DNA from: Bacteroidales bacterium | Lineage (GTDB): Bacteria > Bacteroidota > Bacteroidia > Bacteroidales > WCHB1-69 | Assembly (NCBI GenBank): GCA_031273515.1 | Contig: JAISRU010000081.1 | Location: 1-13,789 of the forward strand | Length of the DNA: 13,789 nt | Direction: 5' to 3' | Shown: one piece after another, positions 6,635 through 13,789 of the stretch | Layout of the letters: each line of letters starts with the position of its first letter | How positions within the stretch are numbered: position 1 is the stretch's first letter | Translations under genes and position numbers: made by a program | Notes under the pieces: model-generated | The model's database searches: none | Seen by the model: the letters and a program-made list of their open reading frames with translations, nothing else | What the model was told of the DNA's origin: nothing

Positions 6635-6642
6635 ACAACGCA

Positions 6643-6808
6643 TCCCGTTAGGGACAATATGTTGGTAGAAGAAATGTACACCTCTATTGTCCGACCTCGA
6701 AGAGGTCAAATGTTTATAGAAGAAATAGACGTCTCTGTTGTACGACCCCGATGGGGTCGAATTGAAACACAACCTCTTTTTCTATAAACATACGATGTCT
6801 TCGACATC
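6643..6808. repeat. REP-like array: four palindromes at about 51-bp spacing
   Basis: Four small stem-loops are seen: TCCC-gtta-GGGA (6643-6654), GACCTC-gaa-GAGGTC (6693-6707), CGACCCC-gat-GGGGTCG (6743-6759) and GATGTC-ttc-GACATC (6794-6808). Their centres lie 50-52 bp apart. The spacers are related: GTAGAAGAAAT and TCTNTTGT recur at the same offset in the first two. The third spacer carries the 12-mer TTCTATAAACAT (6780-6791), the exact reverse complement of 6710-6721, centred on the third palindrome. This resembles REP/REPIN-type repeats moved by RAYT transposases, but no such transposase is in the window. It separates the LRR array from the TPR unit. Confidence 0.75.
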
Positions 6809-6822
6809 AAAACCGGCATACA

Positions 6823-7056
6823 TCATTTATTTTCCATTTCATAACTGCCGATAGATGTTACGTCGAAATTTATCTTGACAGTTTGAATGGAAGAGCGATA
6901 GCCTCCCCAAGGCGCTTTGCTCGATACGGTATAATCATTCATGTTTCCTGTTCCGCTGACAGTAAGGGTATAATTACCGTTTTCGCCGGTAAGAACCCAT
7001 TCGAGGTTTTCTCCGCATGAACCTGATGCAATCATGTTGTCTGAATTATTTGTCAT
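6823..7056 (-). CDS. Truncated BspA-like protein (N-terminal cap only)
   Basis: Only 77 residues are present. They match the module N-cap: MTNNSDNMIASGSCGENLEW, LTVSGTGNMNDY, then APWGGYRSSIQTVKI and the first VTSIGSY of an LRR, followed by EMENK and a stop. The LRRs and C-cap are missing. The sequence loses similarity just where the palindrome array begins, which suggests a recombination or insertion endpoint. The start codon overlaps the stop of the preceding module (7046-7048) in ATGACAAATAA, so it would be translated by reinitiation if at all. It is probably a decayed terminal module, but an active small protein cannot be excluded. Confidence 0.7.
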   Translation of the reverse strand: MTNNSDNMIASGSCGENLEWVLTGENGNYTLTVSGTGNMNDYTVSSKAPWGGYRSSIQTVKINFDVTSIGSYEMENK

Positions 7057-8029
7057 ATTTTTTCTGTTTTTCTGTTACTGGTATTTCTTCAATGTGCTCA
7101 AAAGAACTCCATCCTGTTGCTTCTTTGTAAGCCGATACAGTCCCCTTTGGCACATACAAAGTACATTTATTTTTATCGACATAAGCAAAAGCATTAAATT
7201 TAATACGTGGAATTTTGCTACGTATAAATAAAGATAACAAGCTATCTTTAAACACACTCTTTCCTGTGGATGTTATCGAATCGGAAATAATTACAGAGGT
7301 CAAACCGCTGCAATTACGAAACGCACAATCTCTGATGAATTTTACCGAATTGGGGATGATTACGGATGTCAAAGCACTGCAACCATAAAATGCGTTGGCT
7401 CTAATAACTTTTACCGAAATAGGAATGATTACGGAAGTCAAACCGTTGCAACCGGAAAACGCTCTGCTGTCGATGACTCTTACCGAATCGGGAATAGTAT
7501 AGTTCCTTGTTTTTCCTGCAGGGATTTGAATCAAGGTAGTTTTGTCTTTACTGAACAACACTCCCGATTCGCTCGAATATACAGTATTGTTGGCATCAAC
7601 GATAATAGAGGTTAAATCTTCGCAACCTTCAAACACTCTATCCCCAATCACTGCTACCGAATTGGAAACACTTACGGACTTCAAGCCGCTGCAATTCCAA
7701 AACGCTTCATTTCCGATCGATGTTACCGAATCGGGAATGATTACTGACGTCAAACCGCTGCAACCCTCAAATGCGCTAAATCCGATCGATGTTACCGAAT
7801 CGGGAATAATTACAGATGTCAAACTACTACAACCCTCAAATGCGCTAAATCCGATCGATGTTACCGAATCGGGAATGATTGCTGACGTCAAACCGCTGCA
7901 ACCACAAAATGTTTTGTATCCAATAGATATTACTGAATCGGGAATGATTACGGACGTCAAACCATTGCAACCATAAAACGCTCCATTTCCAATAGACGTT
8001 ACCGAATCAGGGATGATTACGGACGTCAA
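7046..8029 (-). pseudogene. BspA-like LRR protein, C-terminal part after a frameshift
   Basis: This open frame (327 residues) begins within an LRR and has no ATG near its start; the first usable codon would be TTG. It continues the module of 8026-8358 in a frame shifted by one base. It carries about ten more LRRs, an island (VDANNTVYSSESGVLFSKDK...LIQIPAGK...YTIPDSV) found only here and in the third module of the large gene, and the C-cap (NKCTLYVPKGTVSAYKEATGW). The end, EKQKKYDK, overlaps the next start by 11 nt. Two successive LRRs share 47 identical bases (7761-7807 and 7830-7876), a recent duplication. BspA-type LRRs typically bind host or matrix proteins; no target can be named here. 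Confidence 0.72.
7114..7174. repeat. 61-bp C-cap segment identical to 9275-9335
   Basis: Sixty-one bases in the C-cap coding region are the same in two modules about 2.2 kb apart, while adjacent LRR DNA differs. This suggests gene conversion or recent duplication. Confidence 0.75.
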
Positions 8030-8358
8030 ACTGCTGCAACCGGAAAATGCCTACGTCCTATGGAGTTTACCGAATTAGGAATGATTATGGACGTCAAACT
8101 GCTGCAATCTTTAAACGCCTGATTACCTATGGATGCCACACCTGAATTTATTTTGATAATTGTGATAGCTGAGCGATAGTTTTCCCAAGGCGTTTTATCA
8201 TTCCATTTATAATCTTTCATATCTCCTGTTCCGCTGACAGTAAGCATATAATTATCTTTTTCGCCGGTAAGAAACCATTCGAGGTTCTCTCCGCATGAAC
8301 CTGAGGCAATCCTGTTGTCTGGTTTTTTTGCCATATCTCTGCTGTTTTTCTGTTCCAT
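8026..8358 (-). pseudogene. BspA-like LRR protein, N-terminal part before a frameshift
   Basis: The ATG at 8356-8358 (MEQKNSRDMAKKPDN) matches the start of the large gene at 13524, so it is preferred over an upstream in-frame ATG at 8403. An N-cap (SGSCGENLEWFLTGEKD...LTVSGTGDM...TPWENY) and about one and a half LRRs follow. At about 8049-8055 the reading GGA-CGTAG-GCATTT is one base short of the usual spacing. The frame is lost to RRHFPVAAV and stops, while AFSGCSSLTSV continues in the next frame. No homopolymer lies at the lesion. It is a true mutation or a sequencing error; together the two pieces would form a module of about 435 residues. Confidence 0.72.
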
Positions 8359-8370
8359 ATCAGGGTTAAT
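8341..8370. repeat. 30-bp gene-start repeat, internal copy
   Basis: These 30 bases are identical to 13507-13536. Both span the MEQKNS start codon and the untranslated bases before it (minus strand ATTAACCCTGAT then ATG). This places a copy of the operon's first-gene leader inside the array. Confidence 0.85.
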
Positions 8371-8441
8371 CCTTTCAGAACCCATTGGAGGGTCGCTCTG
8401 CATGAACCTGATGTAATCATGTTGTCTGAATTATTTGTCAT
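8359..8441 (-). pseudogene. Scrap of a BspA-like N-terminal cap
   Basis: From an ATG at 8439-8441 the reading is MTNNSDNMITSGSC followed by RATLQWVLKG, clearly a diverged form of SGSCGENLEWVLTG. Then similarity stops and the bases become the leader ATTAACCCTGAT that precedes the next gene's ATG at 8358. The start shares ATGA with the TGA stop of the preceding gene. It is a recombination joint between a module start and a copy of the operon leader, not a functional gene. The frame stays open to 8217 but only as an out-of-frame reading of the next module. Confidence 0.65.
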
Positions 8442-9217
8442 ATTTTTGCTGTTTTTCCTGTTACTGGGATTTCTTCAATGTGCGTAAAAGAACTCCATCC
8501 GGTTGCTTCTCTGTAAGCCGATACAGTTCCTTTCGGAACATATAAAGTACATTTATTTTTGTTAATAGAAGCAAAAACGCTTAAACTAATATGTACAGGA
8601 ATTTTGCTGTATATGATTACGGACGTCAAACTGTGGCAATCCCAAAATGCGCAATCTCCAATAGATTTTACCGAATTGGGAATAGTTATTGATGTCAAAC
8701 TGCGACAACCATAAAATGCATACTTTCCGATAGAGGGTACCAAATTGGGAATACTTACTGATGTCAAACTGTGGCAATCAAGAAATGCGCCATTTCCGAT
8801 GGATGTTACCGAATTGGGAATAGTTACTGATATCAAACCGCTACAACCCCAAAACACACAATCTCCGATGGATGTTACCGAAACGGGAATACTTAGGAAC
8901 GTCAAACTACGGCAATTCACGAATGCACTATCCCTGATAGATGTTACCGAATTAGGGATGATTACGGAGGTTAAACCGCTGCAATCATAAAATGCAAAAT
9001 CTCTAATAGATATTACGCCAGAATTTATCTTAACAGTTTTAATGGATGAATTATATCTTTTCCAAGGAGATGTGTTCTCAGGTATCCATTCGCAATTTTC
9101 CATGTCCCCTGTTCCGCTGACAGTAAGGGTATAATTATCTTCTTCTCCGGTAAGAAACCATTCGAGGTTCTCTCCGCATGTGCCTGATGCAATCCTGTTG
9201 TCTGAATTATCTGTCAT
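8438..9217 (-). CDS. BspA-like LRR protein, single module
   Basis: This 259-residue protein has an N-cap at about 1-64 (SGTCGENLEWFLTGEEDNY...SGTGDME...SPWKRYNSSIKTVKI), six LRRs at about 65-205, and a C-cap (SKIPVHISLSVF...KCTLYVPKGTVSAYREATGW). No signal peptide is present. The start overlaps the preceding gene's stop in ATGACAGATAA. At its own end an extra G (GGAAAAACAGC, where the others have GAAAAACAGC) shifts the tail to GKTAKI. It then ends with TGA in an ATGA overlap instead of the usual 11-nt overlap. LRRs of this type generally mediate binding; the role of this protein is unknown. Confidence 0.82.
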   Translation of the reverse strand: MTDNSDNRIASGTCGENLEWFLTGEEDNYTLTVSGTGDMENCEWIPENTSPWKRYNSSIKTVKINSGVISIRDFAFYDCSGLTSVIIPNSVTSIRDSAFVNCRSLTFLSIPVSVTSIGDCVFWGCSGLISVTIPNSVTSIGNGAFLDCHSLTSVSIPNLVPSIGKYAFYGCRSLTSITIPNSVKSIGDCAFWDCHSLTSVIIYSKIPVHISLSVFASINKNKCTLYVPKGTVSAYREATGWSSFTHIEEIPVTGKTAKI

Positions 9218-10061
9218 ATTTTTGCTGTTTTTCTGTTATGGGTATTTCTTCAATATGCTCAAAAGAACTCCATTCTGTTGCTTCTTTGTAAGCCGATACA
9301 GTCCCCTTTGGCACATACAAAGTACATTTATTTTTGTTGATAGAAGCAAAAGCGCTTAAACTAATATGTACAGGGATTTTGCTGTATATGATTACTGACG
9401 TCAAACTGCGACAATCCCAAAACGCGTAATCTCCAATAGATTTTACCGAATCGGGAATAATTACGGACATCAAACTGTAGCATGCAAAAAACGCGCAATC
9501 TCCAATGGATGTTACCGAATTGGGAATGATTACAGATTTCAAACCGCTACAATTCCAAAACACGCCATTTTCGATAGATTTTACCGCAGTAGGAATAATT
9601 ATTGACGTTAAACTGCTGCAATTCCCAAACACACTTATACCGATAGATGTTACCGAATTAGGGATGATTACGGAGGTTAAACCAATGCAACCATAAAATG
9701 CGAAATTTCCTATGGATGTTACCGAATCGGGAATGATTACAGATGTCAACCCAATGCAACCCCAAAACGCTTTATATCCGATAGATGTTACCGCAGTAGG
9801 AATGATTACGAACGTCAAACCGCGGCAATCCTCAAACGCACTATCTCCGATGGATGCTGCTCCGGAATTTATTTTGACAGTTTTAATGGACGAACTATAG
9901 TCGTTCCATGGAGATGCGTTGTTAGCTATCCCTTTATAATTTTCCATGTCCCCTGTTCCGCTGATGGTAAGGGTATAATTATCTTCTTCTCTGGTAAGAA
10001 ACCATTTGAGGTTCTCTCCGCATGAACCTGATGTAATCATGTTGTCTGAATTATTTGTCAT
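9207..10061 (-). CDS. BspA-like LRR protein, single module
   Basis: This 284-residue protein begins MTNNSDNMITSGSCGENLKW and contains the N-cap, about seven LRRs (about 66-230) and the C-cap ending SSFEHIEEIPITEKQQKYDR. It has no hydrophobic leader. It overlaps the large gene by ATGACAAATAA at its start and the next gene by ATGACAGATAA at its end. This suggests translation by termination and reinitiation along one long mRNA. In two LRRs the usual NSV/DSV is replaced by TAV (IIPTAVTSIG, IIPTAVKSIE). Its C-cap DNA shares 61 identical bases with the frameshifted module. Likely a binding protein of the same class as its neighbours. Confidence 0.83.
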   Translation of the reverse strand: MTNNSDNMITSGSCGENLKWFLTREEDNYTLTISGTGDMENYKGIANNASPWNDYSSSIKTVKINSGAASIGDSAFEDCRGLTFVIIPTAVTSIGYKAFWGCIGLTSVIIPDSVTSIGNFAFYGCIGLTSVIIPNSVTSIGISVFGNCSSLTSIIIPTAVKSIENGVFWNCSGLKSVIIPNSVTSIGDCAFFACYSLMSVIIPDSVKSIGDYAFWDCRSLTSVIIYSKIPVHISLSAFASINKNKCTLYVPKGTVSAYKEATEWSSFEHIEEIPITEKQQKYDR

Positions 10062-13000
10062 ATTTTTGCCGTTTTTTTGTTACTGGTATTTCTTCAATGT
10101 GTCTAAAATAATTCCATCCTTGTGCTTCTTTGTAAGCAGATACAGTTCCTTTCGGGACATACAAAGTACATTTATTTTTGTCGATAGAATGAAAAGCGTA
10201 TAAACTAATACGTAGAATTTTGCGTCTGAATAAAGATACCAAGCAATCTTCAAACACACTCTTTCCTGTGGATGTTGCCGAATCGGAAATAATTACAGAT
10301 GTCAAACTGCTGCAATACAAAAACGCACAATTTCCAATGGAGCTTAGCGAATTGGGGATGGTTACAAACGTCAAACTACGGCAACCCTCAAACGCGTTAT
10401 CTCCTATATATTTCACCGAATTTGGAATGGTTACAGATGTCAAACTGCTGCAATACAAAAACGCCCACCCCCCGATAGATTTTACCGAATCGGGAATAGT
10501 TATAGATTTTAAACCATCGCAACCACTAAACGCCCTGTTTCTTATATATTTTACCGAATTAGGAATAGTTACGGATGTTAAACCACTGCAATTGCTAAAT
10601 ACACTCTTGCTTATAGATTTTACCGAATTTGGAATGATTATGGACTTCAAACCGCTACAACCCTCAAATGCGTTATCTTTGATAGATTTTACCGAATTGG
10701 AAATAATTATGGACAGCAAGCCGCTGCAACCCTTAAATGCGCTATCTCCGATGTATGTAACTGAATTGGGGATAATTACGGATGTCAAACCAATGCAATT
10801 GCGAAACGTATTCTTTCTTATTGATTTTACCGAATCGGGAATGCTTACGGATGTCAAACTGCTGCAACCCTCAAATGTACTATCTCCGATGGATGTTACC
10901 GAATCGGGAATAATTACTGACGTCAAACTACTGCAATTCTCAAACGCTCTATCTCCAATAGATGTTACCGAATTGGGAATGATTACCGATGTCAAACCGC
11001 TACAATCCCAAAACGCCCAATCTTCAATAGATTTTACCGAATTGGGAATTGTATAACTACCTGTTTTTCCAGCAGGAAATTTAATCAATGTAGTTTTGTT
11101 TTTACTAAACAATACTCCCGATTCGCTTGAATATACAGTGTTGTTTGGATCAACGGTAATACGGGTTAACTTCTTACAAGAAGTAAACGCTCTATCCCCG
11201 ATAGATGTTACCGAATTGGGAATAGTTACGGACGTTAAACCACTGCAACCCCAAAATGCGCTATCCCCAATGAATGTTACCGACTTGGGAATGATTACGG
11301 ATGTCAAACCGCTGCAACCGGAAAACGCACTATATCCGATAGATTTTACCGAATTAGGGATGATTATGGACATCAAACCGCTGCAATCACAAAACGTCCA
11401 CCATCCAATAGATGTTACACCGGAATTTATTTTGACAGTTTTAATAGATGAACGATAGGCTTTCCAAGGCGCTTTATCAGACCAATTATAATCCATGTCC
11501 CCGGTACCGCTGATGGTAAGGGTATAATTATCTTCTTCGCCGGTAAGAACCCATCCGAGTTTCTTTCCGCATGTACCTGATGCAATAATGTTGTCTGAAT
11601 TTTCTATCATATCTCTGCTGTTTTTTTCTATTACTGGAGGTATATCTGTAATATGTGTAAAATAATTCCATCCTTTTGCTTCTTTGTAAGCAGATACAGT
11701 CCCCTTCGGAACATACAAAGTACATTTGTTTTTTTCGATAGCATGAAAAACGTTTGAGACTATACATACAGGGACTTTGCTATGTGTGATTAAAGATACC
11801 AAACCATTGCAATTTTTAAACGCGCCATCTCCGATAAATTTTACCGAATCGGGAATAGTTATAGATTTTAAACCGTCGCAACCACTAAATGCCCTGTTTC
11901 CTATATATTTTACCGAATTAGGAATAGTTACGGATGTTAAACCACTGCAGCCATAAAATGCCTCCTTTTCGATAGATGTTACCAAATTAGGAATGATTAC
12001 AGACTTCAAAGCACAGCAACTTCCAAATACGCTATTTTCAATAGAAATTACCGAATCGGGAATGATTACGGATTTCAAATTGTGGCAATTATAAAATGCA
12101 ACTTTCCCGATAGATTTTACCGAGTCGGGAATAATTACGGAGGTCAAACTGCGACAATCAAAAAACGCCCACTTTCCGATATGTGTTATGCCGGAATTTA
12201 TTTTGACGGTTTTAATGGATGGATTATAGTCTTCCCATGGCGCTTCTTTATGAGGCCATTCATAATCTTTCATCTTCCCTGTTCCGCTGACAGTAAGAAT
12301 ATAATTATCTTTTTCGCCGGTAAGAAACCATTCGAGGTTTTCTCCGCATGTACCTGATGTAATCATGTTATCTAAATTATTTGCATATTTCTGTTGTTTT
12401 TCTGTTCCAGATATTTCTTCAATGTGTCTAAAAGAGTTCCATCCTGTTGCTTCTCTGTAAGCGAATACAGTTTCTTTCGGAACATACAAAGTACATTTAT
12501 TTTTGTCGATGGATTCAAAAACGTCCAAATCAATACGTACAGAAATTTTGCTGTGTATGAATAAAGATACTAAGCAATCCTTAAACACACTCTTTCCTTT
12601 GGATATTGCCAAATCGGGAATAATTACAGAGGCTAAACCGATGCAACCGCTAAACGCCCTGTTTCCTATATATTTTACCGAATTAGGGATAGTTACGGAT
12701 GTCAAACTGTGGCACTCGCAAAACGCCCACTTTCCGATGGATGTTACCGAATTGGGAATGATTACGGAGGTTAAACTGCTACACCCTTCAAACGCCCTAT
12801 TTCCTATATATTTTACCGAATTGGGAATGTTTACGGAAGTCAAACTGCTGCACATAAAAAACGCTCTATCTTTGATATATGTTACCGAATTGGGAATGCT
12901 TACGGATGTCAAACCGCGACACCATCTAAACACATAATCTCCGATAGCTGTTACCGAAGCGGGAATGCTTACGGAGGTCAAACTGCTGCAACCCCCAAAC

Positions 13001-13524
13001 GCACTATCTCCGATAGCTGTTACCGAATCGGGAATGCTTACGGAGGTCAAACTGCTGCAACCCTCAAACGCACTATCTCCGATAGATGTTACCGAATTGG
13101 GGATGGTTACGGATGTCAAACCACGACAATCAGAAAATGCCCCCTTTCCGATAGATGTTACCGAAGCGGGAATGATTACCAATTTCAAACTGACGCAATT
13201 CAAAAATGCGCTATCACCGATGGATATAACCGAATCGGGAATGATTACGGACGTCAAACGCTTGCAATCAAAAAACGCATAATCTCCGATAGATGCTACA
13301 CCGGAATTTATCTTGATAGTTTGAATGGCTGGATGATAGTTTTTCCATGGTGATCCATTGTTATCGTTCCATTCATAATCTTTCATCTTCCCTGTTCCGC
13401 TGATGGTAAGGGTATAATTATCTTCTTCGCAGGTAAGAATCCATTTGAGTTTCTGACCGCATGTGCCTGATGCAATAATGTTATCTGAATTATTTGTCAT
13501 TTTTTTGCTGTTTTTCTGTTCCAT
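10051..13524 (-). CDS. Three-module BspA-like LRR protein
   Basis: This 1157-residue protein is three complete modules in one frame. Module 1 (1-380) has an N-cap, about 11 LRRs and a C-cap. Module 2 (381-638) has about 6 LRRs. Module 3 (639-1157) has about 16 LRRs, with the island VDPNNTVYSSESGVLFSKNK after its fourth. Repeats are of the type TSVTIPNSVKYIGNRAF..C. The joints are EKQQKYANNLDN (module 1/2) and IEKNSRDMIENSDN (module 2/3); elsewhere the first kind is a stop-start overlap. The start MEQKNSKKMTNN is preceded by an open stretch without a signal peptide, so export is not evident. Usually BspA-type proteins are secreted or surface adhesins. LRRs at about 12942-13080 show a fresh 69-bp duplication. 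It is the first gene of the array. Confidence 0.87.
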   Translation of the reverse strand: MEQKNSKKMTNNSDNIIASGTCGQKLKWILTCEEDNYTLTISGTGKMKDYEWNDNNGSPWKNYHPAIQTIKINSGVASIGDYAFFDCKRLTSVIIPDSVISIGDSAFLNCVSLKLVIIPASVTSIGKGAFSDCRGLTSVTIPNSVTSIGDSAFEGCSSLTSVSIPDSVTAIGDSAFGGCSSLTSVSIPASVTAIGDYVFRWCRGLTSVSIPNSVTYIKDRAFFMCSSLTSVNIPNSVKYIGNRAFEGCSSLTSVIIPNSVTSIGKWAFCECHSLTSVTIPNSVKYIGNRAFSGCIGLASVIIPDLAISKGKSVFKDCLVSLFIHSKISVRIDLDVFESIDKNKCTLYVPKETVFAYREATGWNSFRHIEEISGTEKQQKYANNLDNMITSGTCGENLEWFLTGEKDNYILTVSGTGKMKDYEWPHKEAPWEDYNPSIKTVKINSGITHIGKWAFFDCRSLTSVIIPDSVKSIGKVAFYNCHNLKSVIIPDSVISIENSVFGSCCALKSVIIPNLVTSIEKEAFYGCSGLTSVTIPNSVKYIGNRAFSGCDGLKSITIPDSVKFIGDGAFKNCNGLVSLITHSKVPVCIVSNVFHAIEKNKCTLYVPKGTVSAYKEAKGWNYFTHITDIPPVIEKNSRDMIENSDNIIASGTCGKKLGWVLTGEEDNYTLTISGTGDMDYNWSDKAPWKAYRSSIKTVKINSGVTSIGWWTFCDCSGLMSIIIPNSVKSIGYSAFSGCSGLTSVIIPKSVTFIGDSAFWGCSGLTSVTIPNSVTSIGDRAFTSCKKLTRITVDPNNTVYSSESGVLFSKNKTTLIKFPAGKTGSYTIPNSVKSIEDWAFWDCSGLTSVIIPNSVTSIGDRAFENCSSLTSVIIPDSVTSIGDSTFEGCSSLTSVSIPDSVKSIRKNTFRNCIGLTSVIIPNSVTYIGDSAFKGCSGLLSIIISNSVKSIKDNAFEGCSGLKSIIIPNSVKSISKSVFSNCSGLTSVTIPNSVKYIRNRAFSGCDGLKSITIPDSVKSIGGWAFLYCSSLTSVTIPNSVKYIGDNAFEGCRSLTFVTIPNSLSSIGNCAFLYCSSLTSVIISDSATSTGKSVFEDCLVSLFRRKILRISLYAFHSIDKNKCTLYVPKGTVSAYKEAQGWNYFRHIEEIPVTKKRQKYDK

Positions 13525-13536
13525 ATCAGGGTTAAT
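13507..13536. repeat. 30-bp gene-start repeat, first copy
   Basis: Identical to 8341-8370. It contains the start codon of the large LRR gene (13522-13524) and the bases before it. No purine-rich Shine-Dalgarno is visible; ATTAACCCTGAT directly precedes the ATG. Confidence 0.85.
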
Positions 13537-13577
13537 TCTTTTTTTGAGGCGCTATGAAAATATTTAGTGTCTGTCCG

Positions 13578-13589
13578 AAAACATGTTTT
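13578..13589. promoter_or_regulatory. Perfect 12-bp palindrome AAAACATGTTTT in the LRR operon leader
   Basis: AAAACATGTTTT is flanked by CCG on the left and GCGG on the right, nearly extending the symmetry. It lies about 55 bp before the LRR start codon, between that start and the possible promoter. It could be a protein-binding site, but a chance palindrome is possible. Confidence 0.3.
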
Positions 13590-13677
13590 GCGGAATTATA
13601 CGGATTTGAAGTTCTGTATGCGTTCTAAAAGCGCTTCAACACACAATTCGACAGACAATCCAACCACAAGAAAACGG

Positions 13678-13685
13678 CAAATGTA
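13678..13685 (-). promoter_or_regulatory. Possible -7 box (TACATTTG) of the LRR array
   Basis: The minus strand reads TACATTTGCCG, matching TAnnTTTG, about 155 bp before the first LRR start codon. No clear -33 TTG is at the right distance. Apart from this box and the palindrome at 13578-13589, the stretch 13525-13789 shows nothing recognisable; a 24-codon plus-strand frame at 13554-13628 is not convincing. Confidence 0.35.
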
Positions 13686-13789
13686 ACGCAAGGGATTATT
13701 TTCCGCCGCATCTTTTTCGGGACAAAATCGATACGAAGGTGTTTATTGTCTGGAAAATCGGCAAAACTTTAATTTGACAGTATTCTCAA

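Follow-up and report, generated by a model that had tools for sequence, protein, structure and literature searches.

Split and fused boundaries in a tandem array of BspA-type leucine-rich repeat modules from a Bacteroidales bacterium

Proteins of the BspA-type/TpLRR group, built on leucine-rich repeats (LRRs) of the PF13306 family, are known from several solved structures (4fs7, 4h09, 4gt6 and 6mlx), and several of these solved relatives are labelled as cell-surface proteins. A tandem array of modules that are alike by Pfam, by sequence search of the PDB (10 sequences) and by fold is described here from a Bacteroidales bacterium, in a stretch of 13,789 nucleotides (nt), hereafter the window, which is contig C272 of a draft metagenome bin of 1.6 Mb (298 contigs, 71.5% complete). 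Whereas 62 of 64 relatives bearing the same N-domain motif look signal-like, the array shows no such signal by the hydropathy proxy used for both. We think it fairly probable that this array consists of tandem duplicates of one BspA-type LRR module, probably translated by reinitiation, and that the states of its joints were fixed in evolution rather than forming a switch.

Three other systems come close to parts of this picture. Multi-module LRR proteins such as P0121 (five N-domains, 1953 amino acids, aa) and P0001 (two N-domains, 468 aa) share with the array the succession of LRRs, cap, short linker and N-domain, but they keep everything in one frame, whereas in the array a stop and a start stand at four of the six boundaries. 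Overlapping genes with translational coupling, as described in two studies (PMC6728339, PMC10666635), likewise lie on the same strand with start and stop within 10 nt; in the array, however, the neighbours are paralogous modules, three of the four overlaps measure 11 nt instead of the common 4 or 1 nt, and coupling is a prediction. Finally, the phase-variable BspA-like genes of Candidatus Mycoplasma girerdii resemble the array in that the frame depends on small length changes, although that report (PMC5476646) describes dinucleotide repeats and length variants measured in reads, while the array has no such repeat and is known from one contig.

Module plan and states of the joints

Seven modules or module remains (M1 to M7, Table 1), all of one plan, lie on the minus strand between 13524 and 6823: an N-domain of about 70 residues (...SGTCGENLEWFLTGEEDNYTLTVSGTGDM...), then 23-residue LRRs, which at the DNA level are 69-bp repeats, and then a cap (NKCTLYVPKGTVSAYKEATGW..FEHIEEIP). 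By their Pfam matches the modules are BspA-type LRRs (PF13306, LRR_5), a family matched by four of the five array open reading frames (ORFs) scanned with 164-919.6 bits, against a curated cut-off of 27.7; M7, an N-domain alone, gave no Pfam match.

The first-pass annotation of this DNA had reported that adjacent genes meet in overlapping starts and stops at three sites, and all its coordinates and letters check. At the M3/M4, M4/M5 and M6/M7 joints (10051, 9207 and 7046) the gene pairs overlap in ATGACA(A/G)ATAA, whose last three bases are the TAA of the upstream gene and whose first three are the start of the downstream one, in +1 to the upstream frame, an overlap of 11 nt with the stop codon counted. 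In the window the motif ATGACARATAA has five copies (7046-7056, 8431-8441, 9207-9217, 10051-10061 and 13490-13500), each of them on the minus strand, compared with a mean of 0.02 in 200 shuffles, although chance is not the right null for that comparison because the copies are homologous. The copy at 13490-13500 lies at the start of the first module, with no other module before it.

The remaining joints depart from this standard. At M1/M2 (ATGCAAATAA) one A is missing after the ATG and the frame runs on as EKQQKYANNLDN, so the in-frame fusion already read there was confirmed codon by codon. A second fused joint, M2/M3, had been overlooked, and carries an extra codon, two extra A's and altered letters at the former stop (ATGATAGAAAA). 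At M5/M6a the preceding ORF ends at the TGA of an ATGA overlap, owing to one additional G upstream; this third state, proposed before, stood, but what had escaped notice is that the joint opens a dead-end frame of 74 residues. Altogether, two of six joints are fused and four bring a start and a stop together. The more general claim that adjacent modules share one standard boundary, at which small indels set product length, is thereby supported, the outcome being one three-module ORF of 1157 aa and a set of single-module ORFs.

The changes in the 3' part of the array (a frame change within M6 and the truncation of M7) had also been missed. The ORF that starts at 8441 does not encode a module: some 66 bases in, it runs into a copy of the first gene's leader and stops, out of frame, at 8217; the leader copy at 8331-8376, standing straight after this 66-nt N-domain fragment, seems to mark an illegitimate junction left by an earlier duplication. 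M6 is split over two frames by a change near 8040-8050, inside an LRR and away from the joints, which was read by eye as the loss of one base.

Origin of the joint and translation of the modules

Along AACAGAAAAACAGCAAAAATATGACAAATAA, the joints can be aligned with two leaders, that of the first gene (GGAACAGAAAAACAGCAAAAAAATGACAAATAATTCAG) and that of M6. This leader stretch reads EQKNSKKMTNNS, and in an unfused joint the upstream module reads the same stretch one frame off, as TEKQQKYDK followed by a stop. Since the last residues of the upstream protein are thus the next leader out of frame, a single origin of the overlap by tandem duplication, followed by copying, is probable; likewise, the motif common to the joints points to common descent and not to repeated invention. 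With the next gene's leader, out of frame, as the boundary, whether two modules overlap at stop and start or are fused depends on a small indel. On a different contig of the same genome, the reading frame of an LRR cap that has lost its own start to the contig end and lacks a following module terminates shortly beyond the cap (FKNIVGKEA), which is consistent with the longer tail of the array modules being an addition.

A 181-nt boundary repeat is present in seven copies. When 15-nt windows between -150 and +120 are compared across the four unfused joints (M6a up to +60), mean identity is 73-97%, and the 30 nt around the start codon, 93-97% identical, are barely above their flanks, so a special conservation of the joint was rejected.

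Start and stop are no more than 10 nt apart in all four unfused joints, as expected for translational coupling. In Haloferax and E. coli, coupling requires overlaps or very short gaps and is almost abolished by gaps of about 20 nt, with overlaps of 4 nt and 1 nt being by far the commonest (PMC10666635), and Bacteroidetes apparently make no use of a Shine-Dalgarno motif in initiation or reinitiation (PMC6728339). A third source (PMC3711429) assigns a cluster of frame transitions to phase variation if there are repeats close to the frameshift and the function fits, and to coupling if no more than 10 nt separate start and stop; loosely applied to this single locus, its criteria favour coupling over phase variation. 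None of the three terminator-like sites on the minus strand lies at a joint. A promoter for each module was rejected, a sigma-70-type scan giving 16 sites against 24.7 in shuffles; promoters of Bacteroidetes differ from the sigma-70 type.

Programmed frameshifting, by which modules would be joined during translation in the absence of any indel, could draw on the A-rich sequence directly before each joint. Three of the four unfused joints would nevertheless need a +1 or -2 shift and the ATGA joint a -1 shift into the dead-end frame; by eye, the joints have no canonical slippery site, which led us to reject it as the joining mechanism, and no run of A exceeds seven. We take it to be extremely unlikely.

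In the duplication history that we prefer, a first duplication would have placed the 5' leader of one copy directly behind the end of the module before it, as the homology between leader and joints supports. The TEKQQKYDK tail of each separate module would then be that leader in another frame, with the start codon of the next gene inside it, and later unequal recombination may have copied the joint. The separate modules would probably be translated in turn by termination-reinitiation from a single transcript. Indels at the joints may be tolerated because the residues coded there lie at poorly modelled ends of the fold, and they would have fused M1, M2 and M3 while leaving M4 and M5 separate; the same process would be eroding the 3' end of the array (M6, M7). 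The AlphaFold2 model of M4 has a mean predicted local distance difference test score (pLDDT) of 93.7, with 71 in the first block and 73 and 44 in the last two, and these low-scoring ends are where the joint-coded residues are located. The best 13 Foldseek matches of the model are bacterial LRR proteins, with modest TM-scores on the query (0.31-0.60).

Divergence, indels and rival explanations

Synonymous divergence (dS) and its ratio to nonsynonymous divergence (dN/dS) were estimated for 21 N-domain pairs, the first nine columns left out (dN/dS 0.25-0.78, dS 0.25-0.80), and for 15 cap pairs, which include part of the joint-coded tail (dN/dS 0.15-0.81, dS 0.29-0.68). With dS of 0.25-0.80 in all 36 pairs the copies are old, and dN/dS is below 1 in every one of them.

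Frame-changing indels were found at three of six joints (about 240 bp, counting 40 nt per joint) and once in about 6438 bp of modules. The Fisher value for this contrast (0.00018), computed on modules that are not independent samples and with the joint length and the count of three changed joints chosen after seeing the data, shows only that indels are tolerated at joints. Drift would predict 1.1-7.2 joint indels and 19-129 module frameshifts, for an indel-to-substitution ratio assumed at 0.03-0.1, again chosen after seeing the data, and a per-lineage divergence of 0.15-0.3; the three changed joints are about what drift would give on this assumed rate. Observed against predicted, the joints behave as if neutral and the frames of the modules as if under constraint, with no special mutability needed.

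If the array were a decaying pseudogene cluster, no longer working and gathering indels anywhere, the two frames of M6, the M6a fragment, the truncated M7, the absence of visible export signals and dN/dS values as high as 0.81 would all fall into place. Such decay is hard to reconcile with an open 1157-aa frame and two complete single-module frames, with the one frame change seen across some 6.4 kb of modules or with the dN/dS values below 1 throughout, and we consider it unlikely. A lower probability still is given to an artefact, with repeats mis-joined or bases lost in the assembly or sequencing of a fragmented and incomplete bin: the region is repetitive, and both the M6a/leader junction and the M6 frame change could be mis-joins or errors, but the boundary-repeat copies differ from the reference copies by 12-37%, so an assembler should tell them apart, the frames are long and open, and the M2/M3 joint carries several changes together.

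The first-pass annotation had gone further, proposing that single-base indels switch the array between small proteins and one long protein. For such a phase-variable switch, reversible and acting within a population, speak the three of six joints that deviate from the standard, the precedent of Ca. Mycoplasma girerdii, whose BspA-like genes phase-vary by dinucleotide repeats (PMC5476646), and the homopolymers: the array has six runs of seven, two of them no more than 50 nt from a joint against an expected 0.5 (joints and flanks making up 9% of the array), with two more at module starts. The array (6823-13551) nevertheless has no homopolymer of eight or more, and no hypermutable simple repeat was found at the joints, where the tandem repeats are two-copy 8- or 9-mers only; this content speaks against a classical contingency tract and leaves room for mild slippage. 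Moreover, the two fused joints carry different changes, M2/M3 having also lost its stop letters, the ATGA joint opens a dead-end frame, the internal change of M6 reveals that indels are not confined to joints, and every module pair is well diverged. The proposal is therefore unsupported and in our opinion very improbable. The same slim chance is all that we would give to a true modular switch, in which indels at the shared boundary would interconvert coupled small proteins and longer fused ones, altering the length and stoichiometry of a non-exported array.

Several observations weigh against the reading of fixed, reinitiation-translated duplicates. The 11-nt overlap is not among the common lengths, and reinitiation is predicted from sequence. 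Two joints and two module starts (8323-8329, 13500-13506) have runs of seven A. The neutral estimate hinges on the assumed indel-to-substitution ratio, and constraint is weak, dN/dS being at least 0.30 in 30 of the 36 pairs. Most flanking windows are slightly less conserved than the joint itself, a pattern that selection acting on the overlap would explain as well, and the lack of export signals makes the function of the array hard to predict. Weighed with all this, the joint states would still be evolutionary outcomes and not a fast, reversible switch.

Export, surroundings and distribution

Table 1. Features of the array, ordered along the minus strand of the window
Feature	Positions	Strand	Evidence
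ORF of 1157 aa, M1, M2 and M3 fused in frame	10051..13524	-	ORF list; PF13306 919.6 bits, 9 stretches
Leader of first gene, first copy of motif, homologous to joints	13490..13537	-	leader/joint alignment, motif search
Module M1: N-domain, LRRs, cap	12388..13500	-	module alignments
Joint M1/M2, ATGCAAATAA, fused, one A fewer than standard motif	12377..12386	-	codon-by-codon reading
Module M2, fused to M1 and M3	11611..12384	-	module alignments
Joint M2/M3, ATGATAGAAAA, fused by a different, longer change	11600..11610	-	codon-by-codon reading
Module M3	10051..11610	-	module alignments
Joint M3/M4, ATGACAAATAA, overlapping start and stop	10051..10061	-	motif search, codon reading
Module M4, separate 284-aa ORF	9207..10061	-	PF13306 173 bits; AlphaFold2 mean pLDDT 93.7
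Joint M4/M5, ATGACAGATAA, overlapping start and stop	9207..9217	-	motif search, codon reading
Module M5, separate 259-aa ORF	8438..9217	-	PF13306 164 bits
Joint M5/M6a, ATGA overlap, one extra G upstream	8438..8441	-	codon-by-codon reading
Dead-end ORF, 74 aa: M6a (~66 nt of N-domain), then leader and N-domain out of frame	8217..8441	-	
Internal copy of first gene's leader	8331..8372	-	83% identity, 8195-8375 vs 13361-13541
Module M6, 5' piece: N-domain and first LRRs	8044..8331	-	within ORF 8026-8403
Module M6, 3' piece: LRRs and cap, other frame	7046..8050	-	PF13306 300.8 bits for 7049-8029
Joint M6/M7, ATGACAAATAA, overlapping start and stop	7046..7056	-	motif search, codon reading
Module M7, truncated, N-domain only, 77 aa	6823..7056	-	ORF list; no Pfam match

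Export was judged by a hydropathy proxy and not by a dedicated signal predictor. No hydrophobic stretch was seen in six N-terminal readings of five modules, whose maximum was 0.67; the proxy reaches at least 1.8 in the 62 signal-like relatives mentioned above (the 64 were picked by N-domain motif from 240) and 2.69-2.97 in all three flanking proteins, which were scanned over 60 residues and the array over 40. By eye, 10 of 11 LRR ORFs of relatives have a signal-like start, and the remaining one begins at a contig end. The tail of the type IX secretion system (PF18962, Por_Secre_tail) has 18 matches in the same genome and none on the contig of the window. Taken together, the missing signal stretch and tail weaken an earlier suggestion of surface variation. 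A short ORF at 13540-13789, 5' of the array, resembles a lipoprotein-type signal (MRRKIIPCVTFAVFLWLDCLSNC); as an export signal for the array it was rejected, since it stops well before the array and is not joined to it, and the likeness was treated as chance.

On the 3' side and the same strand follow a tetratricopeptide repeat (TPR) protein, a 611-aa protein with no match in the Pfam scan and a TPR-SH3 protein. Between the array and the TPR gene lie terminator-like inverted repeats (6641-6810) and a weak, stop-containing match to the module that extends to 6688. The TPR gene is matched in 95 of 99 genomes of the family, own genome included, and its order with the two genes behind it is kept in both same-genus genomes, G001 and G002. 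On its other side these two have different ORFs and no LRR array, as judged from translation ends, so the array is probably lineage-specific at this place. The closest non-self match of the 611-aa protein is 71% identical, among the 48 proteins listed.

LRR matches were found in 35 of the 60 genomes searched, own included, with 37 in G001 and none in G002 (75% complete). In another genome of the order (G057) a single LRR module was matched 72 times, more than in any other of the 60, the next having 37. In two protein searches for close relatives at least 7974 of 7997 and at least 8000 of 8000 candidates passed, and the highest identities among the best 120 of each were 70% and 64%, over about half of the query; the own M4 is missing from the first search though a flanking protein of the same genome is in the database, so absence there is weak evidence. 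The joint motif gave no match in viral contigs. Allowing up to three mismatches, a longer version of the joint matched 5 of 393 genomes of the order, with five sites in the own genome and one three-mismatch site in each of the four others, and its reversed control gave five matches.

Two or more such N-domains occur in one chain in 36 of the 240 proteins fetched. Fused multi-module LRR proteins are frequent among the relatives; what is unusual is a signal-less array, partly split and partly fused, with overlaps derived from a leader. A literature search that left most subscription papers outside its reach found no title on split and fused LRR arrays. Tandem LRR ORFs with gaps of 0 and 9 bases were seen in a Treponema bin (L065, 8408-11713) and a Prevotellaceae bin (L052, 9815-15025), the second ORF of each pair having its own signal-like start, and at four further loci (L032, L071, L130 and L132) LRR ORF pairs overlap by 31-46 nt in different frames, which may be frame changes or draft errors.

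If switching did turn out to be true, the joints would represent a new way for repeat proteins to vary. As found, the array illustrates duplication and drift, and offers a readable snapshot of the way in which a multi-module repeat protein can move between split and fused forms.

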